A stretch of DNA of 64,000 nt from an uncultured Lutimaribacter sp. (lineage in GTDB: Bacteria; Pseudomonadota; Alphaproteobacteria; Rhodobacterales; Rhodobacteraceae): assembly GCA_913061505.1 (NCBI GenBank), contig CAJXSO010000001.1:186001-250000 (forward strand), given 5' to 3'. Below are positions 21,322-28,256 of the stretch, one piece after another. Numbering within the stretch: the stretch's first letter is position 1; each line of letters begins with the position of its first letter. The notes under the pieces are model-generated. The model was not told where the DNA came from. It made no database searches and saw nothing but the letters and a program-made list of their open reading frames with translations. The position numbers and the translations under genes are program-made.

Positions 21322-21954
21322 CTACAGGGTTTCGGCACCATCTGCGCTTTCATCCGTGGCAAAGGCGGGGCGCTGCGGGGTGGCGGCGCGGATATCATCG
21401 ATCAGCCGCATCACCACACGCCGCCCTGCCACACCCGCAAGCGGGCTGTTTTCCGGGCCATAAAGCGCCACGCCCACCACGCGGGCATTCACCACAAAAA
21501 GCGCCCGCCAAAACAGCGCGGGCCTTTGGCCTGCCTCGGCGCCCGGGCCTGCGCGCAGCAATATGGCATCGGGTGCGGCATCCACCAATTCCGCCCCCAG
21601 GCTGCCAGCCAGCGCTGCGGCATCGGGCAGGCCGGCCACCTGCGGCCCTGACACAGATACAGAAATAACGCCGGGTTCGGCGCGCTGGGGCAATGGATAG
21701 CCTGACAGGCTTTCGCAGCTGGCGACTAAGGCAAAATTGCCCCCCTGTTCGCCCCCGCTTTCGCCCCCCTGTTGCGGTGGGGCAGACAGGCTATCGGCAT
21801 CAACGCAATACCCGCCCGAGGGGCGCAGCACCACATCACCCCCCGCCAATACCGCCTGCAGGCGCGCATCGCCTGAAATTTCGGCAGGTGTCATACAGCC
21901 CGCCAGCGCCAAGGCCAGCCCCCCAAAGGCCGCACCAATGCGCAGCCGAGCCAT
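21322..21954 (-). CDS. Predicted lipoprotein of unknown function
   Basis: A 210-residue protein starting MARLRIGAAFGGLALALAGC, a clear type II signal peptide with lipobox LAGC, so it should be lipid-anchored. The mature region contains a Gly/Gln-rich stretch (PPQQGGESGGEQGG), one further pair of Cys residues (GGYCVD, ASCESL), and a C-terminal alpha/beta segment (LFWRALFVVNARVVGVALYG). I chose 21954 as the start because it gives the lipoprotein signal; the open frame extends further into the ilvD terminator and 3' end. No family recognised. Confidence 0.7.
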   Translation of the reverse strand: MARLRIGAAFGGLALALAGCMTPAEISGDARLQAVLAGGDVVLRPSGGYCVDADSLSAPPQQGGESGGEQGGNFALVASCESLSGYPLPQRAEPGVISVSVSGPQVAGLPDAAALAGSLGAELVDAAPDAILLRAGPGAEAGQRPALFWRALFVVNARVVGVALYGPENSPLAGVAGRRVVMRLIDDIRAATPQRPAFATDESADGAETL

Positions 21955-23962: not shown

Positions 23963-24859
23963 ATGGCCTACGCGCCCCATGCCCGTTTTGTTGCCCCGGC
24001 ACTGGCCGCAGCCGATCTGCCGCGTTTGGCCTTTGGCGTTGTGGCCATCGAGGGGCTGTATAAGCTGTTTTTAATGGGGTTCGAGCAGGGGCTAGATGCC
24101 ACCCCAGGCTTTTCGGCGCATATGATGTGGTATGCCAACACCGCCACAGGCCTGCTGCTGCAGCTGTTCAGCTTTGTGTTTTTGGCGCTTGCGGTGGTGT
24201 TGGTGGCGCGGCTGGGCCATGGCCGTGGCCTGGCCAGCCTGATCGGCCCCATCGGCCCCAGCCTGCGGGCGCTGGCATGGGGTTTTGGGGCGGTGCTGCT
24301 GTTTTTTGCCCTCACCGAATTGCTGCCCCCCTATTGGATGGCCGAGGGCCAGGCAGCGGCGCGCACGCCGCTGTACTGGCTGGCGCTTTTGCCGCTGTCG
24401 CTACTTGCCCTGCTGGTGCAATGCGGCGCAGAAGAGCTGTTTTATCGCGGCTATATCCAGCAACAGCTGGCGGCACGCTTTGCCCGGCCATGGGTGTGGA
24501 TGGTGCTGCCCAATATCGCTTTTGCCCTTGCCCATTGGGAGCTGGGCGATTTCACGACCCCCGCGGCGCAATATGTGATCTGGGCTTTTGTCTTTGGGGT
24601 GGCTGCCAGCGATTTGACCGCGCGCACCGGCAATCTGGGGGCGGCCATTGGGTTTCATCTGGGCAATAATGCCTATGCATTTTTGCTATTTGGCGAATAC
24701 GCCGCCCCAGATTCAGGGCTGGCGCTGTTTGTATTTCCCAGCGGCGCCTTGGGCGATGCACTGCTGGATGAGGCGCCGCTGTTCACCACCGCCTTCGCCA
24801 CGGAATTGGCCAGCGTCGGCCTGATGTGGCTGGCCGTGCGGCTGGTGCTGCGGCGCTGA
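23963..24859 (+). CDS. CPBP-family intramembrane glutamic endopeptidase
   Basis: A 298-residue membrane protein with about eight hydrophobic helices and the three CPBP (Abi/CAAX-protease-like) motifs in order: EELFYRGY near residue 157, FALAHWELGDF near 190, and HLGNNAYAF near 233. These supply the Glu, Arg, His and Asn/His of the intramembrane active site. Family members process prenylated proteins in eukaryotes and have varied, mostly unknown roles in bacteria. It stands alone between divergent ilvD and accD. Confidence 0.9.
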   Translation: MAYAPHARFVAPALAAADLPRLAFGVVAIEGLYKLFLMGFEQGLDATPGFSAHMMWYANTATGLLLQLFSFVFLALAVVLVARLGHGRGLASLIGPIGPSLRALAWGFGAVLLFFALTELLPPYWMAEGQAAARTPLYWLALLPLSLLALLVQCGAEELFYRGYIQQQLAARFARPWVWMVLPNIAFALAHWELGDFTTPAAQYVIWAFVFGVAASDLTARTGNLGAAIGFHLGNNAYAFLLFGEYAAPDSGLALFVFPSGALGDALLDEAPLFTTAFATELASVGLMWLAVRLVLRR

Positions 24860-24919
24860 TTGCAATTGCTGGCGCTGGGTCTTATTTGGGGTTGAGCAAA
24901 AATATCAGGGGGCCGCGGA

Positions 24920-25840
24920 ATGAACTGGATCACCAACTATGTCCGCCCACGCATAAATTCGATTTTTTCGCGCCGCGAGGTGCCTGAAAACCTGTGGAGC
25001 AAATGCGATGAATGCGGCACCATGCTGTTTCACCGCGAGCTGAAAGACAATCTGAACGTCTGCACCTCGTGCGGGCATCACATGGCCATCACCCCCCGCG
25101 ACCGGTTCAAAGCGCTGTTTGATGGCGGCATTTTCACCGAAGTTGACGTGCCCGAACCCCTGGCCGACCCGCTGCAATTTCGCGATCAAAAGAAATACCC
25201 CGACCGGATGAAAGCCGCGCTGAAACAGACCGGCGAGAAAGAGGCCATGCTGGTGGCCGCAGGCGAAATTGGCCGCACGCCCATTGTGGCCGCAGCCCAG
25301 GATTTCAGCTTTATGGGCGGGTCCATGGGCATGTATGTGGGCAATGCCATCATCGCCGCGGCGCAAGAGGCGGTGAAATTGAAACGCCCCTTGGTGCTGT
25401 TTTCCGCAGCCGGTGGCGCGCGCATGCAAGAGGGCATTCTTTCGCTGATGCAGATGCCGCGCACCACCGTGGCTGTGCAAATGCTGAAAGAGGCCAACCT
25501 GCCCTATATCGTGGTGCTGACACACCCCACCACCGGGGGGGTGACGGCGTCCTATGCGATGCTGGGCGATGTGCAAATTGCCGAACCCAACGCATTGATC
25601 TGCTTTGCCGGCCCCCGCGTGATCGAACAAACGATCCGCGAAAAACTGCCCGAGGGGTTTCAGCGCGCCGAATATCTGCTGGATCATGGCATGCTAGACC
25701 GGGTCACACCGCGCACCCAGCTGCGCGACGAGCTGATCACCATCGTGCGCATGCTTTTGGGGCTGAGCCCCGCCATCAAAGGCGATTTGCCCGCCCCCAC
25801 CCCGGCAGATACCAGCGATGCGCCGACGCCCAGCACCTGA
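24920..25840 (+). CDS. accD: Acetyl-CoA carboxylase carboxyltransferase beta subunit
   Basis: AccD (306 aa) forms, with AccA, the carboxyltransferase that makes malonyl-CoA for fatty-acid synthesis. An N-terminal zinc ribbon, Cys-X2-Cys-X15-Cys-X2-Cys starting at CDEC, is present near residue 30. The crotonase-fold core has [29 protein letters not shown] and [18 protein letters not shown]. The tail is Pro/Thr-rich. folC follows after 117 nt, the usual alphaproteobacterial accD-folC order; accA is about 4 kb away on the opposite strand. Confidence 0.97.
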
Positions 25841-25957
25841 TGTGGCGGGCGCCTGCCTGCCACAGTCGTAATCTGCCAATAAGCGCCGGTTTTGTGCTGC
25901 CACACTGGCGGCGCTGCGCTACCTGTGCCCCTGAACATTCCCAACCAATGGTTTGCC

Positions 25958-27229
25958 ATGACTGCCACATCCGATGCCATCCTTGCCCGTATGATGGCGC
26001 TGCACCCCAAGATCATTGACCTGACACTTGATCGCGTATGGCGGTTGCTGGCGGCGCTCGGCAACCCGCAAAACAACCTGCCCCCGGTGATCCATATTGC
26101 CGGCACCAATGGCAAGGGCAGCACCCAGGCGATGATCCGCGCCGGGCTAGAGGCCGAGGGCAAGCGCGTGCATGCCTATACCTCGCCGCATTTGGCGCGG
26201 TTTCACGAACGTATCCGGCTGGCCGGCACGCTGATCAGCGAAGAGGCGCTAAGCGCCTATCTGGATGAATGCTATAGCGCCAATGGCGGCGAGGCGATCA
26301 CCTATTTCGAGATTACCACCTGCGCGGCCATTCTGGCCATGGCCCGCACCCCGGCCGATTACACCCTGCTCGAGGTGGGGCTGGGCGGGCGGCTGGATGC
26401 CACCAATGTGGTGGCAACGCCCGCGCTTTGCGTCATTACGCCTGTGTCGATGGATCACGAGGCATTTTTGGGCGATACCCTGGCCAAAATTGCCGGCGAA
26501 AAGGCCGGCATTATCAAACGTGGCGTGCCCTGCGTGGTGGGCCCGCAGGCCGACGAGGGCCTAGAGGTGATCGAGGCCACCGCCACCCGTTTGGGCGCGC
26601 CGCTTTTGGCCCATGGCCAGCACTGGCACGTGGGCACCGACCATGGCCGCCTGGTCTATCAAGACGAAAGCGGCCTGCTTGACCTGCCCTTGCCCAACCT
26701 GCCCGGCGCGCATCAGATTGAAAATGCAGGCGCCGCTTTGGCCAGTTTACGCCACTTGGGGTTTGGGGAACGGGCCGCAGAAGCAGCCGTAACCCAGGCG
26801 CAGTGGCCCGCGCGGATGCAACGGCTGAAAACCGGCCCGCTGTGCCAGATGAACCCGCAGGCCGAATTATGGCTGGATGGCGGCCACAACCCCGCCGCCG
26901 GCATTGCGCTGGCGCGGCATCTGGCCACCCTGCCAGACAGGCCCACGCATTTGGTGTGTGGGATGCTGAACACCAAAGATGTGGGCGGCTATCTGCGCCC
27001 GCTGGCCGGCATCGCGGGCAGCTTGACCGCGGTTTCCATTCCCGGCGAGGCCAACACCCTGCCCGCCCAGGAAACCGCCCGCATTGCCGCCGACGCCGGC
27101 CTGCAAGCGCGCACCGCCGAGACTGTGGCGCAGGCTGTGGCCGCCATCACCGCAACCGACCCGCAAGCGCGCATTTTGATTTGCGGCTCGCTCTACCTGG
27201 CTGGGGCGATCTTGCGCGAAAATGGCTAA
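25958..27229 (+). CDS. folC: Folylpolyglutamate synthase / dihydrofolate synthase
   Basis: FolC (423 aa) adds glutamate to dihydropteroate and extends polyglutamate tails on folates. The ATP-binding P-loop is IAGTNGKGSTQ near residue 45. Other family motifs are YTSPHLARFHERIRL, EVGLGGRLDATNVV, ITPVSMDHEAFLG and the C-terminal domain's WLDGGHNPAAG. The start at 25958 gives a Mur-ligase-like N-terminus; upstream in-frame residues look non-coding. It is probably expressed with accD. A long stable hairpin lies 35 nt after the stop. Confidence 0.95.
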   Translation: MTATSDAILARMMALHPKIIDLTLDRVWRLLAALGNPQNNLPPVIHIAGTNGKGSTQAMIRAGLEAEGKRVHAYTSPHLARFHERIRLAGTLISEEALSAYLDECYSANGGEAITYFEITTCAAILAMARTPADYTLLEVGLGGRLDATNVVATPALCVITPVSMDHEAFLGDTLAKIAGEKAGIIKRGVPCVVGPQADEGLEVIEATATRLGAPLLAHGQHWHVGTDHGRLVYQDESGLLDLPLPNLPGAHQIENAGAALASLRHLGFGERAAEAAVTQAQWPARMQRLKTGPLCQMNPQAELWLDGGHNPAAGIALARHLATLPDRPTHLVCGMLNTKDVGGYLRPLAGIAGSLTAVSIPGEANTLPAQETARIAADAGLQARTAETVAQAVAAITATDPQARILICGSLYLAGAILRENG

Positions 27230-27263
27230 GCCAGCCCCTTGAGGCGCATTGCGCCCCACATAC

Positions 27264-27300
27264 TCGCCCCAAAATGGCAAAATGGGCCGTTTTGGGGCGA
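27264..27300. terminator. Long hairpin downstream of folC
   Basis: TCGCCCCAAAA and TTTTGGGGCGA form a perfect 11-bp stem that extends through a T-G wobble and GGC/GCC to 15 pairs with a 7-nt AAAATGG loop. There is no T-run after it on either strand apart from the T's within the stem. It probably forms the folC mRNA 3' end or a processing/stabilising structure. Confidence 0.65.
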
Positions 27301-27321
27301 TAGCCGCCGCCATGCTTGACG

Positions 27322-27516
27322 CCGAGTCTGCCGATTCGTAATGATTCGAGCAGAGCAAAGCAAAACGACGGGCAACCCCGCGGCTGGCAGGTATCATACA
27401 GGCAACACCCTGCGCATCGGCGCTGTGGCGTGCAATTTCCCGTAAAATTCGTGAAAATACCCCCCTCGCGGGGCCAAACCATGCGCCCGTAGCGCGGCGG
27501 GTGCGCAATGTTTTTT
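27322..27516 (+). ncRNA. Candidate small RNA in the folC-rhodanese gap
   Basis: The 400-nt gap between folC and the rhodanese gene contains no credible coding frame. TTGACG (near 27315-27320) and TAATGA are spaced by 17 nt, and about 165 nt later a GC hairpin (27482-27507, TGCGC-CCG paired with CGG-GT-GCGCA, 2-nt bulge) is followed by TTTTTT at 27511-27516, a good intrinsic terminator. Within the predicted transcript, CCCCGCG (27376-27382) can pair with CGCGGGG (27467-27473). The combination suggests an independent small RNA of about 165 nt. I do not recognise it as 6S, SRP, RNase P or tmRNA. Boundaries are approximate. Confidence 0.4.
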
Positions 27517-27523
27517 CGCATCA

Positions 27524-27568
27524 GCGAATCACCAGCGATTGACCGATTCGCCCAAACTCGCCTATATG
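27524..27568 (+). promoter_or_regulatory. Promoter and possible operator of the rhodanese gene
   Basis: TTGACC (27539-27544) and TATATG (27563-27568) are separated by 18 nt and lie about 60 nt before the ATG. The -35 box sits between the arms of a perfect inverted repeat, GCGAATC (27524-27530) and GATTCGC (27545-27551), a plausible repressor or activator site. Confidence 0.45.
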
Positions 27569-27629
27569 TTGCGTATCTGCTGCCAAACTCATCTAATCAT
27601 GGCTTTGGCGCCTGTGTGGGGAATGGTAA

Positions 27630-28256
27630 ATGGTGCGTATGCTGTGCCGCGCTGCTGTGGCAGTGCTTATGCTGCTGGGGCAGCCCGGCTGGGCCGAAGA
27701 TGTTCGGATTACCGCCGATATCGCGGCAAAACAGATCGTTTTGAATGGGCAAACTATCAACATCGGCCGTATCCAAGACAAGGCCAATGTGCTGACGGGC
27801 GAATTCACCAAAACCTCGCGCGCCTGCCCGCCGTTTTGCATTCACCCAATATCGGCAGGCGCAGGTGTGGAAACCCTGGGCGAGATCGAGGTGCTGGCGT
27901 TTTTGGAAAAGAACGTGGCCCAAGGCACCGGGTTGTTGATCGATAGCCGCGTGCCGGAATGGTTTGCCAAAGGCACCATTCCCGGTGCGGTCAACGTGCC
28001 TTTCACCACGCTCGAGCCCACAAACCCCTATCGCGACGAAATATTAAAGGCGCTTGGCGGGGTGAAAACCGCCAGCGGCTGGGATTTTAGCGCCGCATTG
28101 GACCTGGCCATGTTTTGCAACGGCCCATGGTGCGATCAATCCCCCCGCGCCATTCGCAACCTAACCGAGGCGGGCTATCCACCTGAAAAACTGCGCTATT
28201 ATCGTGGCGGCATGCAGCTGTGGCTGCTGCTGGGCCTCAGCGTGCAAACCCCCTAA
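27630..28256 (+). CDS. Periplasmic rhodanese-domain protein
   Basis: A 208-residue protein with an N-terminal signal peptide (MLCRAAVAVLMLLGQPGWA from the second Met) and a C-terminal rhodanese domain (residues 90-205). The active-site loop reads FCNGPWCDQSPRAI, so the sulfur-carrying Cys is in a longer loop than in classic rhodaneses; LIDSRVPEWFAKGTIPGAVNVPF is the typical N-terminal rhodanese part. It may handle sulfane sulfur in the periplasm; the substrate is unknown. A GGGGAA ribosome site supports the start at 27630. It is followed after 12 nt by the LysM-domain gene. Confidence 0.85.
   Translation: MVRMLCRAAVAVLMLLGQPGWAEDVRITADIAAKQIVLNGQTINIGRIQDKANVLTGEFTKTSRACPPFCIHPISAGAGVETLGEIEVLAFLEKNVAQGTGLLIDSRVPEWFAKGTIPGAVNVPFTTLEPTNPYRDEILKALGGVKTASGWDFSAALDLAMFCNGPWCDQSPRAIRNLTEAGYPPEKLRYYRGGMQLWLLLGLSVQTP

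Follow-up and report, generated by a model that had tools for sequence, protein, structure and literature searches.

A site complementary to an StsR-like small RNA in the folC–rhodanese gap of an uncultured Lutimaribacter

The window analysed here, a 64,000-nt stretch of the genome of an uncultured Lutimaribacter sp., contains folC (25892–27229, plus strand), whose product carries Mur ligase domains (PF02875 and PF08245) and shares 95% protein identity with its counterpart in a sister genome. Direct reading and Pfam place a gap of 400 nt (27230–27629) between folC and a downstream gene for a rhodanese-domain protein (27630–28256, plus strand; PF00581). A sequence-only reading of this DNA had proposed that the gap holds a small RNA with its own promoter and terminator, and its letters and coordinates proved accurate. 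The promoter-like element, hereafter P1, lies at 27316–27344 on the plus strand (TTGACG at 27316–27321, 17 nt, TAATGA at 27339–27344), with GANTC sites inside it and just after it. The terminator-like element (27482–27516, plus strand), recovered by direct reading and by a scan, comprises a GC hairpin at 27482–27505 and, 5 nt further on, TTTTTT at 27511–27516, and the two complementary 7-nt arms are CCCCGCG (27376–27382) and CGCGGGG (27467–27473). These signals do not exceed chance. Between 24000 and 31000 there is one promoter-like site, compared with a shuffle mean of 2.4, and eight terminator-like sites, compared with 8.7; as a sigma70 match, P1 is at chance level. The stretch 27478–27516 has a folding energy of -15.5 kcal/mol. 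Folding of 27352–27516 gave a z-score of +0.74, with 156 of 200 shuffles equally or more stable; the 7-nt arms do pair in this predicted fold, whose stability is that of a shuffled sequence.

The statement that no credible coding frame is present agreed with a comparison of all six frames with the sister genome, in which codon changes were mostly non-synonymous. Among the candidates for a hidden small protein, the minus-strand frames 26867–27508 and 27147–27521 had no Pfam match, and the plus-strand frame at 27316, open in both genomes and beginning with TTG, showed 11 non-synonymous codon changes against one synonymous change. An Rfam search of the whole window returned no match at the gathering threshold; in 27200–27700 it gave only two weak minus-strand matches to snoRNA families (E 1.6 and 2.5), taken as chance. 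Directly 3' of folC, at 27264–27300, there is a long inverted repeat, CGCCCCAAAATGG..GTTTTGGGGCG, which is mostly kept in the sister genome and lacks a T-run; it probably acts as a terminator, either for folC or in both directions.

Conservation of the gap could be followed in one congener (MAG WB4_7_009, locus L003, evidently the same contig as the one matched in genome G001), whose contig matches gap positions 6–208 at 85% and ends near 27438, inside the element and before the second 7-nt arm. A 31-nt run over P1 (27310–27340) is identical in the two genomes and is followed by one change and then an identical TGATTCG, and a second identical run, of 46 nt (27364–27409, plus strand), holds the pairing site described below; the bases between and after these two runs are about 75% identical. 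This identity is suggestive only, because the neighbouring stretch 23963–27229 also has identical runs of 47–118 nt, and the 60 nt that separate the CAAX-protease gene from accD (24860–24919) are 100% identical in the congeners, compared with 90.5% and 93.2% in the flanking genes. In the sister genome, the rest of the gap and the rhodanese gene were not found beyond chance-like matches. The folC gaps of relatives had been named as the place to look for conservation, and among 80 such loci the part running from P1 to the site was matched in the sister locus alone. Matches in the others were short or lay elsewhere, the best of them falling in a second promoter-like element described below, P2 (L065, E 1e-4).

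A different kind of relationship emerged when 27300–27440 was compared by blast with 394 genomes of the family, since the same 20-nt match, at 95% identity, recurred in at least 20 genomes besides the congener. In 13 of the 14 match stretches that were fetched (the fourteenth, from G241, had been chosen for a different match), the matched sequence is the reverse strand of a gene for a small RNA. This gene reads CACTGCTCGATAGGTTTCTTGCCTGTATGAAACCTGCCTCAA, with small variation, and then a terminator. The RNA is about 75 nt long (73–81 nt as cut, over 34 distinct sequences), and its first 40 bases are nearly invariant across the 34 distinct copies in the alignment, A1, which keeps a single copy of any sequence repeated over the cut stretch and lacks L136, missed by the cutting pattern. 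Among 37 copies with distinct upstream sequence, CTTGG precedes the gene in 29 and TATA in 28. The site in the folC gap, GGCAGGTATCATACAGGCAA (27386–27405, plus strand), matches the complement of this small RNA's loop and 3' arm at 19 of its 20 positions.

From how long the A1 small RNA is, the kind of promoter it has, its conservation and its ability to pair with the mraZ leader, we infer that it is StsR ("sRNA targeting sRNA"), an assignment that rests on comparisons within the family, with the Rhodobacter sphaeroides StsR sequence outside them. StsR has been reported as a 72-nt sRNA under RpoHI/RpoHII that binds UpsM and the dcw leader, leading to RNase E cleavage and lower dcw expression (PMC8307010, PMC11354728, PMC8625941), and its expression was also reported under its earlier name, RSs0827 (PMC3688512, PMC3413700). 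UpsM itself is described as a product of the R. sphaeroides mraZ leader, a 5' UTR of 268 nt whose terminator lies 84 nt ahead of mraZ (PMC5089854). In the family, a site complementary to the A1 RNA with at most one mismatch lies ahead of mraZ in 18 of 25 genomes and is absent at that threshold in the other seven. The source genome has both parts besides the window site, namely an StsR-like gene (L128, on contig G000:C25) and a site in the leader of mraZ (L129, on contig G000:C26), the MraZ protein having been identified by Pfam. Rfam (15) had no match at gathering for ten StsR-like loci or for these StsR-like and UpsM loci of the source genome. As both kinds of locus are widespread in the family, A1 (34 copies) and the alignment of mraZ leaders, A2 (18 copies), could seed Rfam families.

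The folC-gap site resembles the mraZ-leader sites in sense as well as in sequence. The UpsM-type StsR-pairing site, CAGGTTTCATACAGGC, is present in the gap as CAGGTATCATACAGGC (27388–27403) on the plus strand, with the same sense as in the mraZ leaders and one base different from the commonest form. Over 27386–27405 it has one mismatch to StsR, whereas the mraZ-leader site of the same genome lacks that mismatch. A possible small hairpin, CGGG-CAAC-CCCG (27369–27380, plus strand), occupies a position similar to that of the GGGGCAA..ACCCC hairpin that precedes the site in mraZ leaders, and its alignment to the UpsM model is gapped and weak. The earlier remark that the RNA could be matched to no known class is answered in part by its likeness to the StsR-binding part of UpsM.

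The distribution of the site core was examined at two levels of stringency. The core CAGGTNTCATACAGGC, searched exactly with one free base, was found in 383 of the 394 family genomes, and a reversed-pattern control was found in none of the 394, all counts of this search being taken by eye from the table. Three copies occur only in the two genomes of this genus, with at most two in all others, and the third copy of the genus is the folC-gap locus. With one mismatch allowed in 41 genomes, 52 places were recovered: 25 sRNA genes (one per family genome among the 41), 18 mraZ leaders, the two folC-gap sites of the window and its sister, and seven others, each with one mismatch and two of them in the source genome. 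The reversed pattern gave two places under the same settings, and the seven others are in line with chance (0.26 expected per 3-Mb genome). Among the genomes searched, the site in the folC gap is confined to this genus.

Two further matches deserve mention in their own right. At G000:C11:45964–45979 (L161, 965–980), the sequence CAGGTTTCATATAGGC is complementary to StsR throughout, with one G-U pair, and directly precedes the ATG of a gene for an EamA-family transporter (Pfam). It may mark an mRNA target of StsR or be a chance match; in the congener, a search with at most one mismatch found no counterpart, and the EamA gene region gave just a short match. A second match within the window (21885–21900, one mismatch) is antisense to a putative lipoprotein gene, with a pairing energy of -29.2 kcal/mol and 11.3 bits (E 0.016) in an nhmmer search with the StsR profile, and was taken as chance.

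Pairing predictions with the StsR hairpin region ranked the piece carrying the folC-gap site first of 15,992 window pieces (-37.6 kcal/mol), the UpsM site scoring -32.4 kcal/mol in the same prediction. This ranking discriminates poorly, with -35.0 for the best-scoring unrelated piece and four unrelated pieces ahead of the UpsM site. Duplex energies computed with long gaps allowed were unspecific, as the window value was reached by 8 and the UpsM value by 13 of 1000 shuffles, and the short-piece scan took their place. The site is present and near-perfectly complementary to the StsR-like sRNA, and this complementarity suggests that the two may pair in the cell.

One reading of these data would dispense with an RNA altogether: the gap, with its many GANTC sites, could serve to regulate the rhodanese operon, and the site could be a functionless fossil or chance match. 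The promoter, terminator and fold, all at chance level, fit such a reading, as do gaps with GANTC and no site in six of nine relatives. Against it, the number of 20-mers within one mismatch of StsR that random bases would yield is about 4e-8 in 400 nt and 3e-4 in the genome, and the sister keeps the site intact while positions flanking the 46-nt run differ. We consider this account quite unlikely.

If an RNA is made, its strand matters, since the opposite strand of the site resembles StsR itself. In favour of the plus strand, the promoter side of the site is conserved in the sister. The UpsM model (A2, R2), built from 18 mraZ leaders and applied to 68.5 kb, gave just two matches, both on the plus strand and at full length: the sister locus (20.5 bits, E 0.0016) and, weakly, the window locus (12.2 bits, E 0.15). 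The StsR model (A1, R1) gave 9.8 bits (E 2.1) on the minus strand at the sister site and no match on the minus strand at the window site; its matches elsewhere in the window, at 2695–2768 (15.1 bits, E 0.11) and 26868–26922 (11.8 bits, E 0.69), were taken as chance. With nhmmer, the alignments covered nothing but the site and the two scored about equally, with 13.1 bits for UpsM and 13.7 bits for StsR on the other strand. Structure leans the other way: on the minus strand the first hairpin has six or seven pairs, two of them G-U pairs whose plus-strand counterparts do not match, and the folding energy over these 50 nt is -15.7 kcal/mol for the minus strand compared with -11.5 for the plus strand. 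The plus strand is favoured for an RNA at the site, though not firmly.

Leftward transcription through 27411–27362 would yield a degenerate or alternative StsR copy that would bind UpsM. Such an RNA would be identical to StsR at 19 of 20 nt across the loop and 3' arm and would form a hairpin of 6–7 bp with the loop GCCUGUAU, then a second small hairpin followed by TTTT. It would lack, however, much of what defines the StsR-like genes. The 5' part CACTGCTCGATAGG, nearly invariant in the 34 aligned copies, is missing, as are the StsR-type promoter, the 10-nt loop, the CUCAA linker and the strong terminator; by eye there is no CTTGG..TATA promoter upstream, nor any CTTG-type (RpoH-like) promoter, and the terminator hairpin reaches -9.6 kcal/mol with a T-run reading TTTT here and TTGTT in the sister genome. 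On the promoter side, identity with the sister is 76% over the first 25 nt, to the extent that its contig covers them. Together with the low score in the sister and the missing window match of the StsR model, these features make a minus-strand StsR-like RNA improbable.

On the plus strand, a further promoter-like element, P2 (TTGACC-N18-TATATG, 27539–27568), lies between the terminator-like hairpin and the rhodanese gene, with a GANTC inside it at 27545–27549, and presumably serves as the rhodanese promoter. A TTGAC..TATA element upstream of rhodanese was seen in all nine relatives examined (taken from ten with a rhodanese match, L082 being left out), and at least one GANTC in the folC–rhodanese gap in six of the nine; blast found no match to the StsR site in their gaps. 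Since P2 lies downstream of the site and the element is present in nine of nine relatives without the site, most rhodanese mRNA need not carry it. This weighs against the possibility that P1 simply reads through into the rhodanese–LysM operon and that StsR alters the stability or termination of a leader in cis, with no separate sRNA and negligible titration. The layout would suit such a leader, as the weak terminator ends 113 nt before the rhodanese ATG, similar to the mraZ leader, and both P1 and P2 are directed at rhodanese; the downstream position of the presumed P2 and its recurrence without the site nevertheless leave a purely cis-acting leader rather unlikely in our view.

The setting of P1 is unusual for its GANTC content. 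GANTC is the CcrM target motif; it is reported to be under-represented in Alphaproteobacteria and enriched between genes (PMC3973325), and the window contains 23 copies against 219 predicted from base composition. Five of the 23 fall in the gap (Poisson 1.4e-7), and four of these five have the extended form YGAKTCG reported for GcrA-activated promoters (PMC7987155), a form for which the same paper reports no preference in B. subvibrioides. The genome has 240 YGAKTCG in total, four of them in the 400-nt gap (Poisson 3.9e-8), and 1000 copies of the reversed control. The cluster, which spans 27324–27549, is the densest in the window. Three of its five sites lie in or beside P1, all kept in the sister: GAGTC at 27324–27328 and the GANTC of CGATTCG at 27333–27337, both in the P1 spacer, and that of TGATTCG at 27343–27347, which overlaps and just follows the P1 -10 region. 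The motif search placed another at 27526–27530 (GAATC, within TGATTCG on the minus strand), and the fifth is that of P2. The genome encodes GcrA (PF07750 over the cut-off) and a 367-aa methylase of CcrM-type architecture (N6_N4_Mtase PF01555 and RAMA PF18755, both over the cut-off), which presumably acts on GANTC. In its clustered GANTC, its share of extended motifs, their position in or next to P1 and the presence of GcrA and a CcrM-type methylase, the region resembles promoters controlled by GcrA and CcrM. Similar clusters precede the rhodanese gene in several relatives, with seven sites in 234 nt in Mesobacterium pallidum (L044), and the rhodanese–LysM operon may itself be a GcrA/CcrM target.

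Our preferred explanation, held tentatively and with somewhat less than even confidence, is that the plus strand is transcribed from about 27351, either into a non-coding RNA or into a leader for the rhodanese operon, and that StsR binds this RNA as it binds UpsM, with the RNA competing for StsR. A plus-strand non-coding RNA from P1 remains the best reading, as the sequence-only reading had it but on other grounds, namely a promoter region that the sister retains and that is dense in GANTC/YGAKTCG sites, and the pairing site for the StsR-like sRNA; it may be a free sRNA or a rhodanese-operon leader, the terminator named for it being weak. Within this explanation we infer that the RNA is transcribed, pairs with StsR in the cell, titrates it and is cleaved, and that the cell cycle controls it. 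StsR would bind at 27386–27405 in the manner of its binding to the mraZ and cell-division leader RNA, UpsM, and the pairing would take up StsR, open the RNA to RNase E and removal, or both. The RNA would in this way compete with the mraZ leader for StsR, and with P1 lying amid GANTC sites of GcrA/CcrM type, its synthesis might follow the cell cycle.

The locus shares with UpsM the plus-strand CAGGTNTCATACAGGC, a possible small upstream GC hairpin, a terminator-like hairpin before the next gene and a long leader. UpsM differs in preceding mraZ and the dcw cluster, whereas this locus precedes rhodanese and the genome's own mraZ leader lies elsewhere. The locus also differs in its site mismatch, its weaker terminator, its GANTC-rich promoter and its restriction to one genus, and it has no clear sequence homology to UpsM beyond the 20-nt site. 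Bacterial sRNA sponges, RNA decoys that are known as a class, offer another comparison: the locus RNA would pair with an sRNA through the seed of that sRNA and could lower its free pool, but it could equally be an ordinary leader target. That it is a genus-specific StsR sponge made from a promoter controlled by DNA methylation through GcrA and CcrM is a more specific proposal, and one we regard as doubtful. If true, the sponge would sequester StsR, the stress sRNA that silences the division genes, and would tie replication-linked methylation to a stationary-phase brake on division. Among the papers listed by searches of one library for StsR, UpsM and sponges, no title or opening part of an abstract concerned such an RNA after folC.

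In Rhodobacter sphaeroides, cell division is coupled to stress through StsR and UpsM, and the components of this link are widespread in the family. A third partner restricted to a single genus would illustrate how such RNA networks acquire new members, and the locus would supply a naturally occurring decoy for testing. Should the GANTC-rich promoter drive the RNA, the sRNA network would be joined to the CcrM/GcrA cell-cycle system. A separate observation concerns the mraZ leaders themselves. In several of them (L129, L139–L173), GATGAGGACGGG before the upstream hairpin and CCCGCTTTCATC after the StsR site look complementary, and, judged by eye, these flanks seem to covary, which would place the StsR site inside a multiloop.
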